A DNA stretch of 64,000 bases from Butyricicoccus faecihominis. Its GTDB lineage: Bacteria > Bacillota > Clostridia > Oscillospirales > Butyricicoccaceae. Positions 28,828-37,935 of this stretch are shown here, piece after piece. The DNA is taken from the NCBI RefSeq assembly GCF_024462775.1, contig NZ_JANGCE010000016.1, positions 1-64,000 of the forward strand, given 5' to 3'. The position numbers were made by a program, and so were the translations under genes. The stretch's first letter is position 1, and each line of letters opens with the position of its first letter. The notes under the pieces were generated by a model that saw only the letters and a list, made by a program, of their open reading frames with translations, searched no databases and had not been told where the DNA came from.

Positions 28828-29007
28828 TTATCTGTGTAAATGTTGACAGCCAGTGTCCGGTTTGAAACGATATACTATTTTCAATAAAGTGACTTGCTTG
28901 ATAAGATTTTCGTACATACCATCTTCACTGATTATATATTGTAGTCCGTTCATATTAGGACCATATACGATAAATGATGGCCGTCCATCACTAAAAAGAT
29001 ATATGCT
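28828..29007 (-). pseudogene. C-terminal remnant of a paralogue of the 31739-32194 protein
   Basis: The encoded YLFSDGRPSFIVYGPNMNGL...EDGMYENLIKQVTL matches the C-terminal half of the protein at 31739-32194 (YLFSEGQSSFIVNGPNMNGL...EDGMYNKLLDQVTL). The N-terminal half is missing, and at 29007/29008 the sequence joins a transposase remnant. It has no start codon of its own. Confidence 0.8.
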
Positions 29008-29147
29008 GCCTAATGCCGCGCAGCATGACAGGATAGTTGCCGCTTTCGCGTTTTTGTCTAGTCCCTTTGGGCATAAAATCACCCCACTCGCACCATAGCA
29101 TACGAATGGGGGGATTGTCAACACGGAGGAACCGTTCCTGTGTGCAT
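29008..29147 (-). pseudogene. N-terminal remnant of a RAYT transposase with its terminal repeat
   Basis: Sequence corresponds to about 32967-33089 of the intact element. It encodes MPKGTRQKRESGNYPVMLRG (start 29074) and then stops after about 26 codons where it meets the paralogue remnant. The terminal palindrome (AGGAACCGTTCCTGTGT) is still recognisable at about 29119-29143. Confidence 0.85.
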
Positions 29148-29884: not shown

Positions 29885-30967
29885 CTACGAAAGAGGGAGG
29901 GTAACGGTAAATCTGATTTTTTCATTCTCGCTTTCTGCAATAATGGTTCCTTTGTGAAGGTCTACAATTTGTTTGGCAATGGCAAGGCCCAAACCAGCGC
30001 CGCCGCTTGTGCTCCTTGCTGTATCAAGGCGATAAAACTGTTCAAATACCTGCGACAGCTTTTCCTTTGGGATCGTATTACCGCAATTTTCAAATGCAAT
30101 GCTCATCCTGTCTTCCTGCTGCGCCGCTGTAATCGTAATGGTTGTATCGTGGAAGCTATAAATAACCGCATTGCGAAGAAGATTATCAAACACACGTTGT
30201 ATTTTATCTGCGTCACAGCGAAGGGTTACACTTTTCGGGGCACAAAGATCACATTGCAGGTTTTTATCTTTAAACATGGGATTGAATTCGTATATAAGCT
30301 GCTCAAGCAAGCGCGTCAAGTCTATTTCCGTATATTGTAAAGTAATATTAGATAAATTGAATCTTGTAATTTCAAAAAATTCATTGATTAGGTCTTCAAG
30401 CCGTTCCGCTTTATTGAGAGAGATAGAAAGATATTTCGTCCTAAGTTCTTCTGAAATTTGCGGTTCATCGCGCAATAGCATTAAATAGCCCATTACAGAA
30501 GAAAGCGGGGTTTTTAGATCGTGTGCAAGGTACATGATCAAATCGTTTTTTCGTTGTTCGTTCTCTTTTGCCAGTCTTGCATTATTTTCAGACTCTTGTT
30601 TTAAGTGGTTGATCTTTAACGCGATCTCGCTAAGCTCCGGCGATAGTTCAATGTAATCTACGTTTTTATCAAATAATTTGCCAGTGGCCTGCTGCAATTC
30701 ATCCACATAAGCGACCACTTTCTTTAGTAGCCGGTATGTAAGAATGATGATGCACACAGCCCATAGTATAGTAGCCGCGGCTCCTAAATAGAGGGAACGG
30801 TAAACCATATAATACTGCGGAACATATTTGCTAAGCACCCATTGTAAACCCATGCCCAACAAATTAGAAGCGATTAGGATAATTGCAGATATAATTCCGC
30901 ACTGGATGATATAGCTTTTGAAAAGGGTTTTCAGCAGATTATTTTTCTCCCCTTTATTCGATTTCAT
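29885..30967 (-). CDS. VanS-type sensor histidine kinase
   Basis: The 360-residue kinase has two membrane helices (about residues 12-35 and 45-66) with only a short external loop (KYVPQYYMVYRS), a linker/HAMP-like region, and a dimerisation domain with phospho-acceptor His in LAHDLKTPLSSVMGYL (about residue 149). The ATPase domain has N-box NLLRNAVIYSF and G-box GGAGLGLAIAKQIVDLHKG. The pattern is that of the VanS B/D/G-like kinases. Its start overlaps the regulator's stop by 14 bases. No vanH, vanA/B or vanX ligase cassette is present in the window. Confidence 0.88.
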   Translation of the reverse strand: MKSNKGEKNNLLKTLFKSYIIQCGIISAIILIASNLLGMGLQWVLSKYVPQYYMVYRSLYLGAAATILWAVCIIILTYRLLKKVVAYVDELQQATGKLFDKNVDYIELSPELSEIALKINHLKQESENNARLAKENEQRKNDLIMYLAHDLKTPLSSVMGYLMLLRDEPQISEELRTKYLSISLNKAERLEDLINEFFEITRFNLSNITLQYTEIDLTRLLEQLIYEFNPMFKDKNLQCDLCAPKSVTLRCDADKIQRVFDNLLRNAVIYSFHDTTITITAAQQEDRMSIAFENCGNTIPKEKLSQVFEQFYRLDTARSTSGGAGLGLAIAKQIVDLHKGTIIAESENEKIRFTVTLPLS

Positions 30968-31652
30968 AGCCTACACCCCAAACCGTTTTTATAAATCTTG
31001 GCTTTTTTGGTGGTTCGTTCAGCTTTTCTCTAAGGCGGCCAATGTGCGCCATTACGGTGCTGTTATTGTTCAGATATTTTTCTTTCCATACGGCTTCAAA
31101 CAATTCTTCTGAAGGTATGACTTTACCCTGATGTTCGCACAGATACCAAAGAATCGAAAACTCAATGGGAGTCAGCGACAATTCCTTTCCATACAAAAAG
31201 CATTTGTGGCTATCTTTATTGATCACAAGACCTCTGATGTCAAATTCCGTCTTTTCAACAGATTGTCTTAAAACAGAGGTATTATATTTGGAACAACGTC
31301 TTAATTGTGTTTTTACCCTTGCAACAACCTCCAATGGGTTAAACGGCTTGGTCATATAATCGTCTGCCCCAATGGTTAATCCCATGATCTTATCGCTGTC
31401 CTCAATTTTAGCGGTTAGCATAATAACAGGAAAATAGAAATTTTCCCTTATTTTTTGGCAGATACGAAACCCGTCCGTATCCGGTAACATAACGTCTATT
31501 ATCGCCAAATCAATTTCCGTTTCTTGCATACATTGTAAAGCATCAGTCCCATTATAAAACTTGTATACGGTATAATTGTCATTCGTCAAATAGACTTCAA
31601 GCAGATCGGCAATCTCTTTTTCATCATCTACAACAAGAATTTTCTCATTCAT
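30954..31652 (-). CDS. VanR-type OmpR-family response regulator
   Basis: The 232-residue product has a receiver domain with acidic pair DDEKE (about residues 8-12), phospho-acceptor Asp in IIDVMLPDTDGF, Thr in MLTAK and Lys in MTKPFNPLEVVARVK, then a winged-helix domain ending RFIKTVWGVGYEIE. It closely follows VanR of glycopeptide-resistance operons (EKILVVDDEKEIADLLEVYL; LSLTPIEFSILWYLCEH). The second ATG is chosen because AAGGAG is eight bases upstream of it. With no resistance genes beside it, its targets are unknown. Confidence 0.9.
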   Translation of the reverse strand: MNEKILVVDDEKEIADLLEVYLTNDNYTVYKFYNGTDALQCMQETEIDLAIIDVMLPDTDGFRICQKIRENFYFPVIMLTAKIEDSDKIMGLTIGADDYMTKPFNPLEVVARVKTQLRRCSKYNTSVLRQSVEKTEFDIRGLVINKDSHKCFLYGKELSLTPIEFSILWYLCEHQGKVIPSEELFEAVWKEKYLNNNSTVMAHIGRLREKLNEPPKKPRFIKTVWGVGYEIE

Positions 31653-31680
31653 CGTCATTGCTCCTTATATTTAAACACAA

Positions 31681-32194: not shown

Positions 32195-32225
32195 AAAGGC
32201 TTCACCTGCTTTTTCTCTGCACACA

Positions 32226-33087
32226 TGCACACAGGGACGGTTCTTCTGTGTTATTTATTTCTGACGATACCAAGGGACCAGCCGGTTAAACGGACGATCT
32301 GCCGAAGGGATGCGCCATTTTGTTTGAGCGCGGCGATTGCGCATTTGCGCGTATCAGTGGACAAACCTTGCAGTGTAGCGGGTTCGTCCGTGCCGCAAAG
32401 AGTTTTTAGCAGCTTTTTTGCATCACTATCCGAATACCGATGTGTGTCGCTGATATCCATACAGGTGGTTTCAACCGGTTTTGCATGTAGCTTTTTCAAA
32501 ACTTTAATGCTGCGCGCATGGTCATAATCCAGCATGGTTAATACCTGCGCAGTGTCGCAGAATGTGTCCGCACCTAGGTAGCCGGAGTAACTGCTCCATC
32601 GGTAATCCGTTGGATGACTGCACAGCTTGGCTTGGACCGGATTCTGGTGGATATACCGCAGGACGGAAAGGAAATAAGCGTCGTCATCGACTGGCTCACT
32701 GCGAAAACGGTCTTGGAACAAATGTCCGGAACGGATATATTTGTAATTATACCACGAAACATAGCGCACACCAATGCGCTTGAAAATCTGTTCAAGTGAT
32801 TCAGCGTTCGGCATGGTTTGCAGAAGTAGATGAATGTGGTTGCTCATCAGACAATAGGCATATAAATGAAAACCGCTGATCGCTTTGCAATCACAGAGTA
32901 TTTGCAGAAATTTTTCGCGATCTTCATCGGTTTCAAAAATGTTTTGCTGATTCACGCCGCGCAGCATGATATGGTAGTTGCCGCTTTCACTTTTTTGTCT
33001 AGGTCCTCTAGGCATAAAATCACCCCACTCGCACCATAACATACGAGTGGGGTGATTGTCAACACAGAAGAACCGTCCCTGTGTGCA
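32226..33087 (-). mobile_element. RAYT (IS200-like tyrosine transposase) element with 27-bp inverted ends
   Basis: Perfect 27-bp inverted repeats bound the element at 32226-32252 and 33061-33087. Each contains an inner palindrome ACACAG...CTGTGT around GGACGGTTCTT. A second hairpin, ATCACCCCACTCG against CGAGTGGGGTGAT, lies at 33019-33055 just before the gene. An extra partial end (ACCGTCCCTGTGTGCATTA) follows at about 33099-33118. Decayed copies are at 29008-29147, 31681-31752 and 37744-37935, and a solo palindrome at 26498-26523. Confidence 0.9.
32251..33015 (-). CDS. REP-associated tyrosine transposase (RAYT)
   Basis: 254 residues of the Y1/IS200-type single-strand transposase fold, which cuts and joins DNA at palindromic hairpins. 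The HUH pair is in LMSNHIHLLLQ (about residue 58) and the catalytic tyrosine in VLRYIHQNPVQAKL (about residue 126), with YRWSSYSGYLG after it. The C-terminal 60 residues form a helix-turn-helix-like extension (ASLRQIVRLTGWSLGIVRNK). All catalytic positions are present, so this copy may be active. Start MPRGPRQKSE is the RAYT start; nine upstream codons lie in the hairpin. Confidence 0.92.
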   Translation of the reverse strand: MPRGPRQKSESGNYHIMLRGVNQQNIFETDEDREKFLQILCDCKAISGFHLYAYCLMSNHIHLLLQTMPNAESLEQIFKRIGVRYVSWYNYKYIRSGHLFQDRFRSEPVDDDAYFLSVLRYIHQNPVQAKLCSHPTDYRWSSYSGYLGADTFCDTAQVLTMLDYDHARSIKVLKKLHAKPVETTCMDISDTHRYSDSDAKKLLKTLCGTDEPATLQGLSTDTRKCAIAALKQNGASLRQIVRLTGWSLGIVRNK

Positions 33088-33117
33088 TTGGGGACACGTT
33101 AACCGTCCCTGTGTGCA

Positions 33118-33867
33118 TTAAGTAGATTCACTCCAAAACGGAATATGGATTTTGCATATCCAATTCGACAGATTATGTTCATTTTCGGTGATAAGTAAGT
33201 CAAAGTCTAATGTCTGAAAATTTTCATGGGGAGTAAAATCAAGTGTAATATGACTCTTATTTGTTTCATTTTCATCTTGTTCTATTGAGTATGTAACATA
33301 TGGAGTAAGTTCATCTGGAAAAACAACATCATAATACAGAGTTTGCGCTATATCCATTTCATCAGTGCTTAAAGATAATGTTATGACAAATTGATTGTTA
33401 TATGATGTAGCATTTATCTCTGGCGACGTCTTTAAAGTTTCACTTGACTCTAGTATGTCGGGTATCAAATAAAAATTGTATTCGCCTGCATACAGGTCGA
33501 TGTATTCGCCATTTTTGTTATTAAATCGAATAGAATTAAAGGCTTCAATATACTTTTTAATATTAATTTTTATACAGTCTTGCTTAGACTCCAAAACAGA
33601 AATGTTTGAATATACAATCTCTTTATCATTAAGCAAATCAATTGTTGAAAATGGAATTTGTTCTATTTCATCACCAAATAGTAGTGTTATGTCTGTTCCT
33701 ACGCCGGATCTGTAATAATAATACGAGTGTTTATTTATATTAATGGATTCTAATAATTCTTTGTTAATCTGAGGGCTATGGCTAAATGAAAGTAATGCAA
33801 TAATAAGCAAAGAAATTGTACTGAGAATAATTAGTGAACAGCGTCTATATTTAAGAAGACGTATCAT
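33118..33867 (-). CDS. Membrane-anchored protein of unknown function
   Basis: 249 residues: a basic start (RLLKYRRC), one membrane helix (about residues 11-30), then an external region of beta-type alternation with many Asn, Ser and Glu. AAGGAG seven bases upstream fixes the start. The stop codon lies at the edge of the RAYT end repeats. It follows the agr-regulated secreted-protein gene, but a strong hairpin (33884-33921) lies between them, so cotranscription would need readthrough. No family recognised. Confidence 0.65.
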   Translation of the reverse strand: MIRLLKYRRCSLIILSTISLLIIALLSFSHSPQINKELLESININKHSYYYYRSGVGTDITLLFGDEIEQIPFSTIDLLNDKEIVYSNISVLESKQDCIKINIKKYIEAFNSIRFNNKNGEYIDLYAGEYNFYLIPDILESSETLKTSPEINATSYNNQFVITLSLSTDEMDIAQTLYYDVVFPDELTPYVTYSIEQDENETNKSHITLDFTPHENFQTLDFDLLITENEHNLSNWICKIHIPFWSEST

Positions 33868-33883
33868 ATAATTGCTCCTTACA

Positions 33884-33921
33884 AGATCAGCATGTGTTTT
33901 ATTAAAACACATGCTGATCTT
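33884..33921 (-). terminator. Strong hairpin between two secreted/anchored-protein genes
   Basis: An almost perfect palindrome of 17- to 18-bp arms (AAGATCAGCATGTGTTTTA on one side) lies 10 bp after the stop of 33931-34578. The T-run is short, so it may act as a terminator or as an mRNA 3'-end processing/attenuation structure. Confidence 0.75.
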
Positions 33922-33930
33922 AAATATTAT

Positions 33931-34578
33931 TTACAAAGCAACTTTATAAATATCGTAGTCAGTGCCATAGGGTTCTGTAGTAGATGCCCTATAAATAGTA
34001 TAACCATTGCCAATAGCTTTAGGTTTTAAATAGATATAGTATTTGGTCTGCATATTTACCCATGATTTTAAGCAATGTTTATAACCAACGGCCGGATTTT
34101 TAAGAACAATTGATACAGTTTTTTTGTATGTTTCACCTTTTCCGTATGACATATTAGCATTTGCAAAATCTTCAAAACCAAATTCAACGCTCCCAGAAAT
34201 GCTAGCGGTTACAGAATGCGCATTTTCAAGATTAATTGTACTAACTGCGGTTCGCACGCTATAAGTATCCTCTTGTTCATTAGTATGATACCGATAAACA
34301 CCATTTGTGCCCTTATCAGTTTCAAGGCACCATTGCTTTGGAACATAAATTCCATCACGAAGAATAGGGAGATCCATATCTTCAGGTTCAGCGCTTACCT
34401 GAGGAGCTGAATCGCTGTAAGGAAGATCATCTATTGCGATAAGATTCCCGTTTTCATAGGTAAAGCTATGATTGGTGCCTTGCTGGATTTCAATTTCATT
34501 GGTAGCACTAGCCGCAAAAGCACCTGCCGTAGTTAAGCACAGCGTTAGCATAAAAATGCAGAATCGCTTAAATTTCAT
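33931..34578 (-). CDS. Secreted protein of unknown function, predicted agr-regulated output
   Basis: 215 residues with a signal peptide (KFKRFCIFMLTLCLTTAGAFAASA; cleavage near residue 24). The mature part has an acidic N-terminal region and then, from about residue 105, a Ser/Thr-rich alternating segment (TASISGSVEFGFEDFANANM) and YKKTVSIVL, resembling amphipathic beta-hairpins of pore-forming proteins in pattern only. Two Cys are in the mature chain (QWCLET and KHCLKS). It is expressed from a promoter that duplicates the agrBD promoter architecture (34786-34853). The start is set by AGAGGT. No family is recognised. Confidence 0.75.
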   Translation of the reverse strand: MKFKRFCIFMLTLCLTTAGAFAASATNEIEIQQGTNHSFTYENGNLIAIDDLPYSDSAPQVSAEPEDMDLPILRDGIYVPKQWCLETDKGTNGVYRYHTNEQEDTYSVRTAVSTINLENAHSVTASISGSVEFGFEDFANANMSYGKGETYKKTVSIVLKNPAVGYKHCLKSWVNMQTKYYIYLKPKAIGNGYTIYRASTTEPYGTDYDIYKVAL

Positions 34579-34785: not shown

Positions 34786-34853
34786 AGTCTAACAGCTTCC
34801 CAATCCGCTTGCAATAGATTTGCAATAACCGGTCGGTTTTCTGCAATAACTGG
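34786..34853 (-). promoter_or_regulatory. LytTR/AgrA-type promoter upstream of the secreted-protein gene
   Basis: Minus-strand repeats CCAGTTATTGCA (34842-34853) and CCGGTTATTGCA (34821-34832) are 21 bp apart, and the second ends 29 nt before a TAGACT -10 box (34786-34791) with TTGCAA 17 bp upstream. The repeats, their spacing and their distance to the -10 box match the agrBD promoter exactly. The start codon is about 207 bp downstream of the -10 box, so the transcript has a long leader. The rest of the 344-bp gap holds only this leader and the agrC terminator. Confidence 0.88.
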
Positions 34854-34869
34854 TAGGCATAGTTGAAAA

Positions 34870-34910
34870 GAGGGCAGGCTCCACACGGAAAACATGTGGA
34901 GCCTGCCCTC
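34870..34910 (-). terminator. Intrinsic terminator after agrC
   Basis: GAGGGCAGGCTCCACA and TGTGGAGCCTGCCCTC form a 16-bp stem followed on the minus strand by TTTTC. It ends the agrA-agrC transcript just upstream of the LytTR promoter. Confidence 0.92.
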
Positions 34911-34922
34911 TAACAATACTGC

Positions 34923-36182
34923 CTAGACATTCAGTGTGATAGAGACAGTGTAAACGCCGTTCTCCTTTGTTGCATTGTAAATACCGCTGTTTTTTTCAAC
35001 GCAATATTGCACATTTTTCAGACCATAGCCATGTATGGAAGGGTCTCGATGTGGTACGAACAGGGGATCGTAAGTATTTGAAATTTCATAAAGCAGCAAG
35101 CTGCCGTTTTGCCGAAACAGAATAGAGACCCACTTTTCTGCTTTCGGGTCCTTGATATTTTCACATGCCTGAATCGCGTTATCCAGCGTATTACCTATGA
35201 TGACGCTTAAATCCAGAGGGGAGATATTTAAATCCGCAGCGGTAGAGCCTTCCAGCTTTATTTTGATCCCTTTGGATTTTGCTTCGCGGATACCGCGATC
35301 AAGGATCGCGCTGATTACCGCGTTATCCAGCCGCACAAAATCGCCAAGGCCGGAAAACTGATGGTTTAGCTCATTCAGGCTGGCCGCGGCCTGCGGCTGA
35401 TCAGCACTGACCAGCGCGGAAACGGCGTTGATCTGCTTTTTGATATCGTGCCACATGGAACGGGTGCGTTCCTGCTCTTCCAGCATGATTTTGTAATACT
35501 CGATTTGCGTTTGCAGTTGTTGCTCCGCTATCGCTTTCTTTTGTGCGGCGTCATATCCAGCCTTCATATAAACCAGATAAGCATAAAGAATAATGTTGAT
35601 ATACAACAGGCCTATAAGCGAAACGGTTAAGAAAATGGGATGTGGAGAAGAAAGCTGCATTGCAGTTCGCCATAGCAAGGCACAGGCAAAGATACTAAAC
35701 ACCTGACAGAGCAGAAGGGGCAGGATACGGAAAAACGGCATTTCAAACAACCCGTGTTTGCCACGGGAAGCCGATAACAGAATGATGCTCAACTGCACGG
35801 TTTTTGCTAAAATAATGAAGATTGCGCGGTGCTGAGGGCTTGTCATAAGCTGTGCATTATCCAAATGAAACAAGTAAAGCAGCCCCATACTAAGCAGGTC
35901 TACCACGATTGCGATAGATGAAAAAAGAACAGCAAAGCCCACTGCTTGCCAGACCTTACTCAAATAGAAACGGAAAACGAACAACGTAAGCAAACCGGTC
36001 AATAAGATAAGCCGTATGGTTGAGCTGGAAACAAACAGGCTAAGAAGCAGATTGCACAGGAAAAATCCGCCGTAGTAAAATGGGCGGTAAAGAATCGGTT
36101 TACTTTCAAATAAGCCTTGCGCCAGTATGTAAACAAGAATAGTTTCAAAAAAAGCGGCTGCTATTTCAATGATAAGAAGCAT
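34923..36182 (-). CDS. agrC: AgrC-type sensor histidine kinase
   Basis: The 419-residue receptor kinase has about six membrane helices in residues 1-205, the peptide-sensing domain of AgrC proteins. A helical linker leads to the H-box SMWHDIKKQINAVSALV (His about residue 243). The ATPase domain is the GHKL type: VIIGNTLDNAIQACENI (N-box) and GYGLKNVQYCVEKNSGIY (G-box). It overlaps the agrA stop by one base and should phosphorylate AgrA on binding the peptide from agrD. Confidence 0.9.
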   Translation of the reverse strand: MLLIIEIAAAFFETILVYILAQGLFESKPILYRPFYYGGFFLCNLLLSLFVSSSTIRLILLTGLLTLFVFRFYLSKVWQAVGFAVLFSSIAIVVDLLSMGLLYLFHLDNAQLMTSPQHRAIFIILAKTVQLSIILLSASRGKHGLFEMPFFRILPLLLCQVFSIFACALLWRTAMQLSSPHPIFLTVSLIGLLYINIILYAYLVYMKAGYDAAQKKAIAEQQLQTQIEYYKIMLEEQERTRSMWHDIKKQINAVSALVSADQPQAAASLNELNHQFSGLGDFVRLDNAVISAILDRGIREAKSKGIKIKLEGSTAADLNISPLDLSVIIGNTLDNAIQACENIKDPKAEKWVSILFRQNGSLLLYEISNTYDPLFVPHRDPSIHGYGLKNVQYCVEKNSGIYNATKENGVYTVSITLNV

Positions 36183-36865
36183 TAGTGTGACCTCAAATAT
36201 TTTTGTAGTGTGTCCTGAAAGTCTTTTTTCCTTGCACGGCTAATTGGTATTTCTGTACCATCGATCAAAACGGTGGTGAACAAAGAAATACGGCTGACAT
36301 ACTGCAAATTGACTAAATAGCTGTTATGGATGCGGCAAAAGCCTGCCGCTGCCAGCTCCCGCTCCGCTTGCTTCAGTGTAAGGCGTGTTTCGTAGGTTTC
36401 ATCCTTACTGTGGATTATAGCGGTAAACTTAAAAGTTTCGATGTAGTAAATATCCTTTGTCGGTAGAATAACCAATTCCCCATCCTGCGTAAAGGAGAGT
36501 GTTGCCGGGGCGATAGCGCAAAGCGCTGCATCCATCACCGTGCAAAATTCTTGAAACTGAATAGGCTTGACCAGAAAGCGAAAAGCCACACCGTAGCCGG
36601 AAACCGCAAAACCCGTATTTTTAGTAGTAAATATAACAAGCGGAGGTTTGGCGCGTCGACTAAGCTGCTCCGCTGCCTGATAGCCCGTGGGTTCTGGCAT
36701 TTCAATATCCAGAAGTACCAAGTCATAGAAGCTATTTTCAAATGCCTGTAGAAGATCTGCGGCTGCATAAAAAACATCGGCTTGCAGTGTAGGATCGTAT
36801 TGGGCCAGCAGGGCTTGTATGTGTTGTAATTCCTGTTTCTCGTCATCACAAATAGCAATATTCAT
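36182..36865 (-). CDS. agrA: AgrA-type LytTR response regulator
   Basis: The 227-residue product has a receiver domain (acidic pair CDDEKQ about residues 7-8; phospho-acceptor in VLLDIEMPEPTGYQ, about residue 55; Lys in FLVKPIQF) and a C-terminal LytTR DNA-binding domain (about 125-225; YYIETFKFTAIIH, FCRIHNSYLVNLQYV). LytTR proteins bind direct repeats one or two helical turns apart, which fits the 21-bp repeats found here. The second Met is preferred as start because GAGGG lies just upstream of it. Confidence 0.9.
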   Translation of the reverse strand: MNIAICDDEKQELQHIQALLAQYDPTLQADVFYAAADLLQAFENSFYDLVLLDIEMPEPTGYQAAEQLSRRAKPPLVIFTTKNTGFAVSGYGVAFRFLVKPIQFQEFCTVMDAALCAIAPATLSFTQDGELVILPTKDIYYIETFKFTAIIHSKDETYETRLTLKQAERELAAAGFCRIHNSYLVNLQYVSRISLFTTVLIDGTEIPISRARKKDFQDTLQKYLRSH

Positions 36866-36917
36866 AATAACCCTCTTCATTCTTACTTGTTATAGCCTCA
36901 CTTTACTGCGGTGGCAC

Positions 36918-36985
36918 CCAGTTGTTGCAAAATAACAACCAGTTATTGCAAAACGATAGACAAAGATTCCCAATATAGCTATAAT
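36918..36985 (+). promoter_or_regulatory. LytTR/AgrA-type promoter of agrBD
   Basis: Direct repeats CCAGTTGTTGCA (36918-36929) and CCAGTTATTGCA (36939-36950) are 21 bp apart. Twenty-nine bases later comes TATAAT (36980-36985), with TAGACA as a weak -35 box 17 bp upstream of it. This is the divergent intergenic region, so AgrA could also affect its own agrAC promoter (a TATAAC box lies at about 36893-36898 on the other strand). Confidence 0.9.
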
Positions 36986-37006: not shown

Positions 37007-37612
37007 ATGGCGCCGAAATTGATAAAGAGTTTTTCTGACCGAATATCGGATTTTTTTATCAGGCAAAAAATTATTACAGACGACCGGCGGGCAGTGTATT
37101 CCTATGGCCTTGAGTTGCTGCTTTCAACGCTGATTTCCCTTTTGGGCGTTGGTATCGCTTCGCTGCTGCTAAAGGATTTTTTAGGATACCTTTGTTTTTT
37201 GGCCGCGTTTATTCCCTTTCGCCTTTGGGCAGGTGGGTATCATGCGGATTCTCACTTTAGCTGTTTTTTCTGTTTTCTCGGTATTTTCGGTGCGGCATTC
37301 GCTGTTACACTGCTGCTGCCGCAAACCATCTGGAAAGTGGCGGCTATTGCAGCGGCGGTAATCAGCTTGTGCCTGATCCTTCCATTGGCCCCATTAGCGC
37401 ATCCAAACAAAAGGGTGAATGAGCAAAAGAGACAAAGGAATAAAAAACGAAGTTTCATTCTAGCCATACTTTATTTAATACTTGCAATCACTTGGCTGTT
37501 ATTGCCCGCTGCTTCTTTTAAATGGCTATTCCATTTGTTTTTAGGCGAGTTTTTTGCCGCTCTTTCGCTTGCGGCAGGAAAAATAAAAAATTTAAGGAGG
37601 TCTTCCCCATGA
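37007..37612 (+). CDS. agrB: AgrB-type peptide-processing membrane protease
   Basis: The 201-residue integral membrane cysteine protease cuts the C-terminal tail from the AgrD precursor and forms the thiolactone ring. The catalytic pair is in GGYHADSHFSC (His79 and Cys86), spaced seven residues apart as in known AgrB proteins. About six membrane helices follow the N-terminal amphipathic segment, and a basic loop NKRVNEQKRQRNKKR lies between helices 4 and 5. The start is the internal ATG after GATAGGAAG; the earlier part of the frame covers the promoter. It overlaps agrD by four bases. Confidence 0.92.
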   Translation: MAPKLIKSFSDRISDFFIRQKIITDDRRAVYSYGLELLLSTLISLLGVGIASLLLKDFLGYLCFLAAFIPFRLWAGGYHADSHFSCFFCFLGIFGAAFAVTLLLPQTIWKVAAIAAAVISLCLILPLAPLAHPNKRVNEQKRQRNKKRSFILAILYLILAITWLLLPAASFKWLFHLFLGEFFAALSLAAGKIKNLRRSSP

Positions 37613-37743
37613 AAAAGCTTTACGGATTCTTTTTGAAAAGCGCAAGTGCGCTAGCCGCGCTGACACTGGTTATTGCCACGGTAGCAAATGGCTCCACCTG
37701 CTGGTTTACTTCTTATCAGCCGGAAGAGCCTGATATGGATTGA
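37609..37743 (+). CDS. agrD: AgrD-type cyclic autoinducing peptide precursor
   Basis: 44 residues in the order typical of AgrD: amphipathic leader (KKLYGFFLKSASALAALTLVI), core with Cys31, and acidic tail YQPEEPDMD. The core GSTCWFTSYQPEEP aligns with the Clostridium perfringens AgrD core (TSACLWFTHQPEEP, from memory), placing the ring at C31-W-F-T-S35 with a short N-terminal tail. AAGGAGG precedes the ATG, which overlaps the agrB stop. The cleavage sites are predictions. Confidence 0.92.
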   Translation: MKKLYGFFLKSASALAALTLVIATVANGSTCWFTSYQPEEPDMD

Positions 37744-37935
37744 CACAACACACACGGTTCTTCTGTGTGATATGTTTCTGACAGTGCCAAGGGACAAATC
37801 TTAAACAATGCGGTGGAATTTCCCATGACGCAGAGTGTTTCCGGCAATTCGCCTGCAATGAAAGCCGCTGACCGCCTTGCAATCGCAGAGTATTTGCAGG
37901 AGCTTTTCGCGATTTTCATCCGGCTCTTTCTGATC
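37744..37935 (-). pseudogene. Decayed RAYT copy with internal deletions
   Basis: The first 55 bases resemble 32227-32283 of the intact element (terminal palindrome and 3' end of the gene). Then 37857-37925 resemble 32867-32935 (coding for the segment ADRFAITEYLQ in the antisense reading). The middle of the gene is missing. It directly follows the agrD stop codon. Confidence 0.75.

Follow-up and report, generated by a model that had tools for sequence, protein, structure and literature searches.

What is the peptide signal of a small agr locus for? This question is raised by a 64,000-nucleotide stretch of Butyricicoccus faecihominis DNA (positions 1 to 64,000 of contig NZ_JANGCE010000016.1, assembly GCF_024462775.1; hereafter the window), in which the promoter of the quorum-sensing genes agrB and agrD and a second promoter behind agrC carry matching pairs of AgrA-type boxes. 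The locus is very probably a self-contained Agr quorum-sensing cassette, in which a loop of autoregulation is joined to a single output operon of its own. The proposal of a first-pass annotation was that AgrA controls a small regulon whose output is extracellular. The agr genes, an assembly scan that returns two sites, and a geometry kept in relatives carry the regulatory part of that proposal, which is well supported, while we infer that AgrA binds the boxes, that the promoters respond to the peptide and that the output protein is exported. A two-promoter quorum circuit is about the simplest complete signal-to-output system to test, and this one points to an orphan secreted protein as the purpose of the signal.

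The agr genes and two matching promoters

The agr locus is complete and occupies both strands. On the forward strand (37007-37743) lie agrB (37007-37612; Pfam AgrB, 5e-36, 124.2 bits against a cut-off of 23) and agrD (37609-37743), which encodes 44 aa and scores 38.5 bits with TIGR04223 (cut-off 19). On the reverse strand (36865-34923) lie agrA (36182-36865), with a receiver (Pfam Response_reg, 2.3e-14) and a LytTR DNA-binding domain (2.5e-21, 76.1 bits), and agrC (34923-36182), a GHKL sensor kinase in the AgrC position (Pfam HATPase_c_5, 6.4e-16, 58.6 bits). The set of genes that marks an Agr system is thereby present: AgrB, an adjoining AgrD, and a GHKL kinase paired with a LytTR regulator. 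The kinase is not of the staphylococcal type, because it scores 14.6 with the Staphylococcus AgrC equivalog model, far under the cut-off of 500. In AgrD, the signal core is probably located around STCWFTS, preceding YQPEEP, and the pattern C-x4-YQPxxP is common to the AgrD of the window and those of relatives. Mapping of DNA-contact residues onto AgrA was set aside, as only 3d6w matched its own domain at E 0.01 (E 0.0008).

The agrBD promoter, read on the forward strand, consists of box 1 (CCAGTTGTTGCA, 36918-36929), box 2 (CCAGTTATTGCA, 36939-36950), and a core promoter (36957-36985) in which the -35 TAGACA is followed after 17 nt by the -10 TATAAT (36980-36985). The output promoter, read on the reverse strand, is spelled by box 1 (CCAGTTATTGCA, 34842-34853), box 2 (CCGGTTATTGCA, 34821-34832), and a core (34786-34814) with a -35-like TTGCAA, again 17 nt, and the -10 TAGACT (34791-34786). 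The sequence check found all four boxes where the first-pass annotation had placed them, with 21 bp from start to start in both pairs and 29 nt from box 2 to the -10 at both promoters. A further element can be added to this match, namely the -35-like hexamer, which begins 6 nt past box 2 in each case. The layout common to the two promoters is a 12-bp box, 9 bp, a second 12-bp box, 6 bp, the -35, 17 bp and the -10. Both pairs are intergenic, lie 2 kb apart and are each aimed at a gene, and the arrangement is that of AgrA/VirR-type sites, in which a pair of direct repeats spaced by two helical turns lies upstream of the -35, with the same placement at all targets. Counted from the -10, the CCAGTT motif has its G at about -50 and -71.

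Care must be taken with the single box, which with up to 2 mismatches occurs 16 times in the window against 17.4 expected; the weight therefore rests on the pair. The scanned assembly comprises 3,686,344 bases in 56 contigs and is 96.87% complete. It holds the exact pair, with a gap of 7-11 nt, at 2 places (control 0), and when the gap is set to 9 nt and up to 3 mismatches are allowed, still just these 2 places are returned, with none for the reversed-pattern control and a simple expectation of about 0.0015. The earlier argument that such a match is unlikely to arise by chance is thus borne out, and the genome-wide scan that had been suggested as a check picks out exactly the two predicted sites and nothing else.

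A mechanism can be proposed for the circuit. AgrB would mature and export the AgrD cyclic peptide, and AgrC would sense it and phosphorylate AgrA. Two AgrA molecules would then sit on the paired boxes, which lie on the same DNA face at a distance of two helical turns just upstream of the -35, and would recruit RNA polymerase. Activation would take place at two promoters only, that of agrBD, where the promoter boxes predict feedback by the peptide, and that of the output operon, which would supply an orphan secreted protein and a membrane-anchored partner. A hairpin behind agrC probably ends the agrAC transcript and would set the output operon apart.

Boxes and geometry in related agr loci

The same arrangement can be looked for in relatives. 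An AgrA search at class level covered 393 genomes (E up to 1e-45) and matched 58. Apart from the window and G120, these matches reach at most 188.5 bits and were not carried into the comparison; the loci taken from this search and two further ones have at least 250 bits. Like the other AgrA searches, it scored the best candidates per genome (at most 7, 11 or 33), and absences apply to those. Twelve loci with a closely related AgrA were compared (the window, G002, G038, G120, G203, G227, G298, G810, G894, G958, G987 and G990), and eight weaker AgrA matches (L049-L056, E 3e-33 to 1e-29) among the 14 stretches fetched were left out of the box analysis. At each locus, a region of about 750 bases, around agrA and on its upstream side, was searched at every period from 14 to 30 for the best direct-repeat pair with a -10 at 25-32 nt. 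A period of 21 gives a score of at least 14 in 8 of the 12 loci, compared with 0-2 of the 12 for each of the 16 other periods, and in those eight loci the observed score lies above that of all 30 shuffles. The geometry is retained in relatives with different box letters, as expected if box and regulator co-evolve. Elsewhere in the family (86 genomes), the relaxed window pair (up to 1 mismatch) occurs at 4 places, the same as the 4 of the reversed control, and so the code is private to the window locus. Relatives with changed box letters form a natural set from which the DNA-reading rules of LytTR regulators can be worked out. An AgrA scan of genome_contigs gave no match, and the AgrA profile found one partial match (L103) in viral contigs. 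A small HTH_3 regulator lies between agrA and the agrBD side in L043 (9655-9972), L045 (12178-12513) and L097 (1331-1678), with none there in the window.

The boxes could instead be bound by a LytTR regulator other than the adjoining AgrA, which would make the link to the peptide indirect. Scoring 7 of the 58 candidates in the genome gave at least seven LytTR response-regulator matches (E 1e-15 or better), and AgrA is therefore the likely, not the sole, candidate binder. A remote regulator, however, would be expected to have other sites, and both sites are at the agr locus with none elsewhere; the letters of the box also vary by genome while the geometry at agr stays constant. Binding by another regulator is accordingly improbable in our view, and AgrA is the preferred reader of the boxes.

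A further promoter behind agrC is also found in relatives. In G002, of the same genus as the window, the boxes read CTAATTACTGCA and CTAAACTCTGCA, and this pattern, with up to 3 mismatches, occurs at 4 places in the genome of about 2.8 Mb (3 mismatch-free and 1 with 2 mismatches; control 0). The three exact sites are all at the agr locus, within 5.2 kb of contig C2 (87019-92142). The first stands ahead of the agrB-agrD frame, the second 43 nt behind agrC, and the third 2.6 kb beyond that. By our reading the last two are alike upstream too, as if the end of agrC had been copied together with the promoter segment. In G227, the extra site is located 19 nt behind agrC, ahead of a gene for a 145-aa secreted protein, beyond which come a lipoprotein-like protein, membrane proteins (read from the sequence, with no Pfam match) and an ABC ATPase. 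Scores of the extra site, with the maximum of 20 shuffles in brackets, are 27 (21) in the window, 26 (23) in G002 and 23 (21) in G227. Taken together, a second site stands 19 to 70 nt behind agrC in 3 of the 9 loci tested.

The proteins encoded behind agrC are a different matter. BLASTP among the nine finds no clear relation, with the window protein matching the others no better than E 0.8 and with hints only between the G227 protein and a DUF5626 protein of G298 (E 0.012) or a 90-aa frame of G002 (E 0.08). The slot behind agrC thus appears to recur in three of nine loci with its content changing. This recurrence in two other species bears on the possibility that the second site of the window has no function and arose by chance or by recent duplication of the agrBD promoter. 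Just two copies in the genome would be compatible with such an origin, but the sequence between and around the boxes differs while the spacing 12-9-12-6-6-17-6 is kept, and a functionless copy is very improbable.

Several features of these relatives can be recorded in their own right. In G002 (L043 10205-10507), agrB is short, and some 55-60 AgrB-like residues (a weak match, E 0.003) run directly into AgrD in one 100-aa open reading frame (ORF). The agrA and agrC genes and three AgrA-type promoters are kept despite the short agrB, and this strain may be able to hear the signal and not make it. In L043 3752-7600, the first output promoter is followed by the 90-aa frame, which looks like a remnant, with no signal-peptide ORF seen. 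A 541-aa protein comes next; it carries a WG repeat, and each of its ends has a hydrophobic segment. The gene behind the second promoter copy encodes 382 aa, with a hydrophobic segment at the N terminus. In G298 (L048 6896-8601), agrD has on either side a gene for a secreted DUF5626 protein, on the strand of agrB, and a 56-aa product resembling a membrane protein is encoded there too. No mention of DUF5626 was found in the literature searched, most subscription papers being outside its scope.

The proposed output operon

The protein encoded by the output gene (33931-34578, reverse strand) is 215 aa long, has a signal-like N terminus and is without relatives in the searches described here. Its N-terminal hydrophobic stretch suggests that it is exported, and its mature part has two cysteines, at residues 84 and 169. 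In Pfam, it has only sub-cut-off matches over the signal-peptide end (DUF6520, 17.6 bits against 25.4; DUF7503, 13.8 against 27) and does not match DUF5626 (PF18540), which has two matches at the G298 agr locus. NCBIfam gives none, PHROGs one match at E 0.097, and the PDB sequences only E 0.6 and worse; there is likewise no match in genome_contigs, plasmids, phages or viral_contigs, searches from which its own or very near records were possibly excluded. Among 87 genomes of the family the protein occurs only in the window's own, and 394 genomes of the order add three further weak matches (E 0.0015 to 0.009). Two of these were rejected as relatives: L010, where by our reading the match overlaps an MreC-like ORF, and L011, where the alignment covers the signal peptide. 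The second gene behind the output promoter (33118-33867, reverse strand) is preceded by AAGGAG and encodes 249 aa with one N-terminal hydrophobic segment and no known family.

Two hairpins flank the output gene. The first, on the reverse strand behind agrC (34872-34910), is strong and a probable terminator between agrAC and the output promoter: folding of 34862-34922 gives -40.2 kcal/mol (z -9.26). A simple terminator scan of the window does not list it, and G002 has a hairpin behind agrC too. The second, a perfect hairpin of 18-19 bp that separates the output gene from its neighbour (33883-33921, reverse strand), reaches -26.2 kcal/mol (33880-33926), has no T run on the transcribed strand and perhaps tunes the ratio of the two products.

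The second site could also mainly drive a regulatory RNA, as with RNAIII, VR-RNA or SpoZ of other Agr/VirR systems, with the secreted protein secondary. The leader ahead of the output gene is about 200 nt long, and PMC10602386 describes Agr regulons in general as including a small RNA. This leader, however, is no more structured than its shuffles (z +0.74), and the window holds no Rfam family at gathering score; below that score there are only five microRNA-type matches, all on the hairpin at 33.9 kb. The output ORF has, by our reading, a plausible ribosome site as well as its signal-like N terminus. An RNAIII-like RNA at the output site is thus disfavoured, by a leader without excess structure and the lack of an Rfam family, and a mainly RNA output is quite unlikely; the protein operon is the preferred output.

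Two readings of the secreted protein can be compared. An adhesin, matrix or host-interaction protein, as opposed to an antibacterial one, is an option that we place a little short of even. Agr systems elsewhere control such exoproteins, and relatives carry a WG-repeat protein and DUF5626 proteins at or near the slot, neither of which is known to have an antibacterial role. Nothing specific speaks against this option, but an orphan sequence with a paired anchored gene fits antagonism somewhat better. In that case the output protein would act on competing bacteria and the anchored neighbour would shield the producer, a possibility suggested by the layout, which is our best guess for the output though we hold it at distinctly less than even. 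No bacteriocin, toxin or immunity family was found for the operon products in Pfam, NCBIfam or PHROGs (above cut-off or E <0.005).

Several observations weigh against the interpretation of the locus as a self-contained cassette with a dedicated output operon. The whole circuit is predicted from sequence. The output -10, TAGACT, is a 4 of 6 match, and the output promoter (8/12) falls under the limit of 9/12 of the window's promoter scan and is unlisted, although by our reading a preceding TG-T may make it an extended -10; the scan found 15 sites against 12.0 expected and does list the agrBD promoter (11/12). In the period test, L044, L046, L047 and L095 are without a clear 21-bp pair (L046 has a plausible one by eye, with TTGAAA at the -35 place, that scores at chance, 10 of 30 shuffles), L043 scores 16 at period 14 versus 15 at period 21, and the top-scoring pair of G227 used a -10 on the opposite strand, the reading directed at agrBD having TATACA. 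Six of the nine loci tested for an extra site behind agrC have no clear one, and the runner-up of L097, at 23 (shuffle maximum 21), overlaps that locus's own first site. The hairpin behind agrC is absent from the 22 nt folded in G227. Finally, the lack of any toxin, bacteriocin or immunity family match leaves antagonism as a guess from layout.

Known systems and genomic setting

The kind of regulation described here is already known, namely paired-repeat activation of the AgrA/VirR/RgaR type and agr autoinduction. The letters of the VirR box resemble those of the window boxes. In quorum-controlled bacteriocin loci of lactic acid bacteria and streptococci, a peptide, a kinase and a LytTR-type regulator activate nearby secreted products through paired repeats, whereas in the window the signal is of the AgrD/AgrB type and the output is a 215-aa protein without a bacteriocin family match. 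The agr system of Staphylococcus aureus shares with the window all four genes agrB, agrD, agrC and agrA, direct repeats arranged in pairs ahead of the promoters, and autoinduction (predicted in the window). In the window, however, agrBD and agrAC are divergent, and the second promoter is aimed at a protein operon behind agrC in place of an RNAIII-like RNA. The -35/-10 spacing also differs, at 17 nt here and 18 and 20 nt in S. aureus P2/P3 (PMC4227749).

The VirR/VirS system of Clostridium perfringens likewise uses a LytTR regulator and two imperfect direct repeats (34 nt in total) on the same face upstream of the -35 (PMC2838878). The same paper states that the two VirR boxes lie immediately upstream of the -35 on one helix face, that phasing them apart abolishes function, and that the targets include toxin genes. 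According to PMC10602386, VirR does not activate agrBD in C. perfringens, while in the window regulator, signal and output form one cassette.

A similar geometry is that of RgaS-RgaR in Clostridioides difficile. According to the same paper (PMC10602386), its repeats are also 21 bp apart, with RgaR requiring G at -51 and -72, and its targets comprise agrB1D1, hypothetical proteins and one small RNA. The G at about -50 and -71 in the window stands at nearly the same place. Five target promoters are named there for RgaR, compared with two in the window. The paper further reports that the C. difficile peptide does not signal through RgaS-RgaR, so that there is no loop; in the window the genes for peptide, receptor and regulator lie next to one another, and the prediction is a loop. 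This 2023 study suggested that clostridial Agr is generally not autoregulatory (PMC10602386). The same box at agrBD, beside a full receptor pair, predicts the opposite for this locus. What is new is an orphan secreted-protein target with a membrane-anchored neighbour, a tiny linked two-promoter regulon, a movable-looking cassette, and a hint of a reusable slot. No paper on the window cassette was found among the top results of the literature search, within the scope given above, which leaves its absence unproven.

The setting of the agr cassette looks mobile. GC content in 1-kb bins is 33-46% in 28-38 kb, against 47-61% in 20-28 kb and 49-59% in 38-46 kb, and it is low again (33-35%) at 46-48 kb. 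Left of the cassette, at 32225-33088, a Y1/IS200-type transposase element is bounded by inverted repeats, and a decayed partial copy, with 61% and 88% identity to parts of this element, occupies 37745-37920, from 1 nt past the agrD stop. A genome labelled as the same species (G004; one contig, 98% complete) has no such AgrA at 1e-56 (33 of 71 candidates scored) and no output protein. AgrA of the window kind is found in 3 of 87 genomes of the family and in 8 of 250 in the family of G227, a distribution that fits patchy gain of the cassette. Tentatively, and with doubt prevailing, it can be proposed that agr in this order is a movable cassette with an AgrA-box slot behind agrC, in which unrelated secreted or surface-anchored effectors are swapped and sometimes duplicated with their promoter. 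Signal, DNA code and quorum-gated weapon would then each be private to the strain, and the cassette would have moved here with IS200-like elements.

Two features of the neighbourhood can be added. A further partial, decayed IS200-type copy lies at 28883-29147, and the element at 32225-33088 and the copy at 37745-37920 bracket the agr cassette. In the low-GC stretch beside the cassette there is also a VanR/VanS-like two-component pair (29885-31658), scoring 401.5 bits with VanR_ACDEGLN (cut-off 350) and 396.5 with VanS, slightly under the cut-off of 400.

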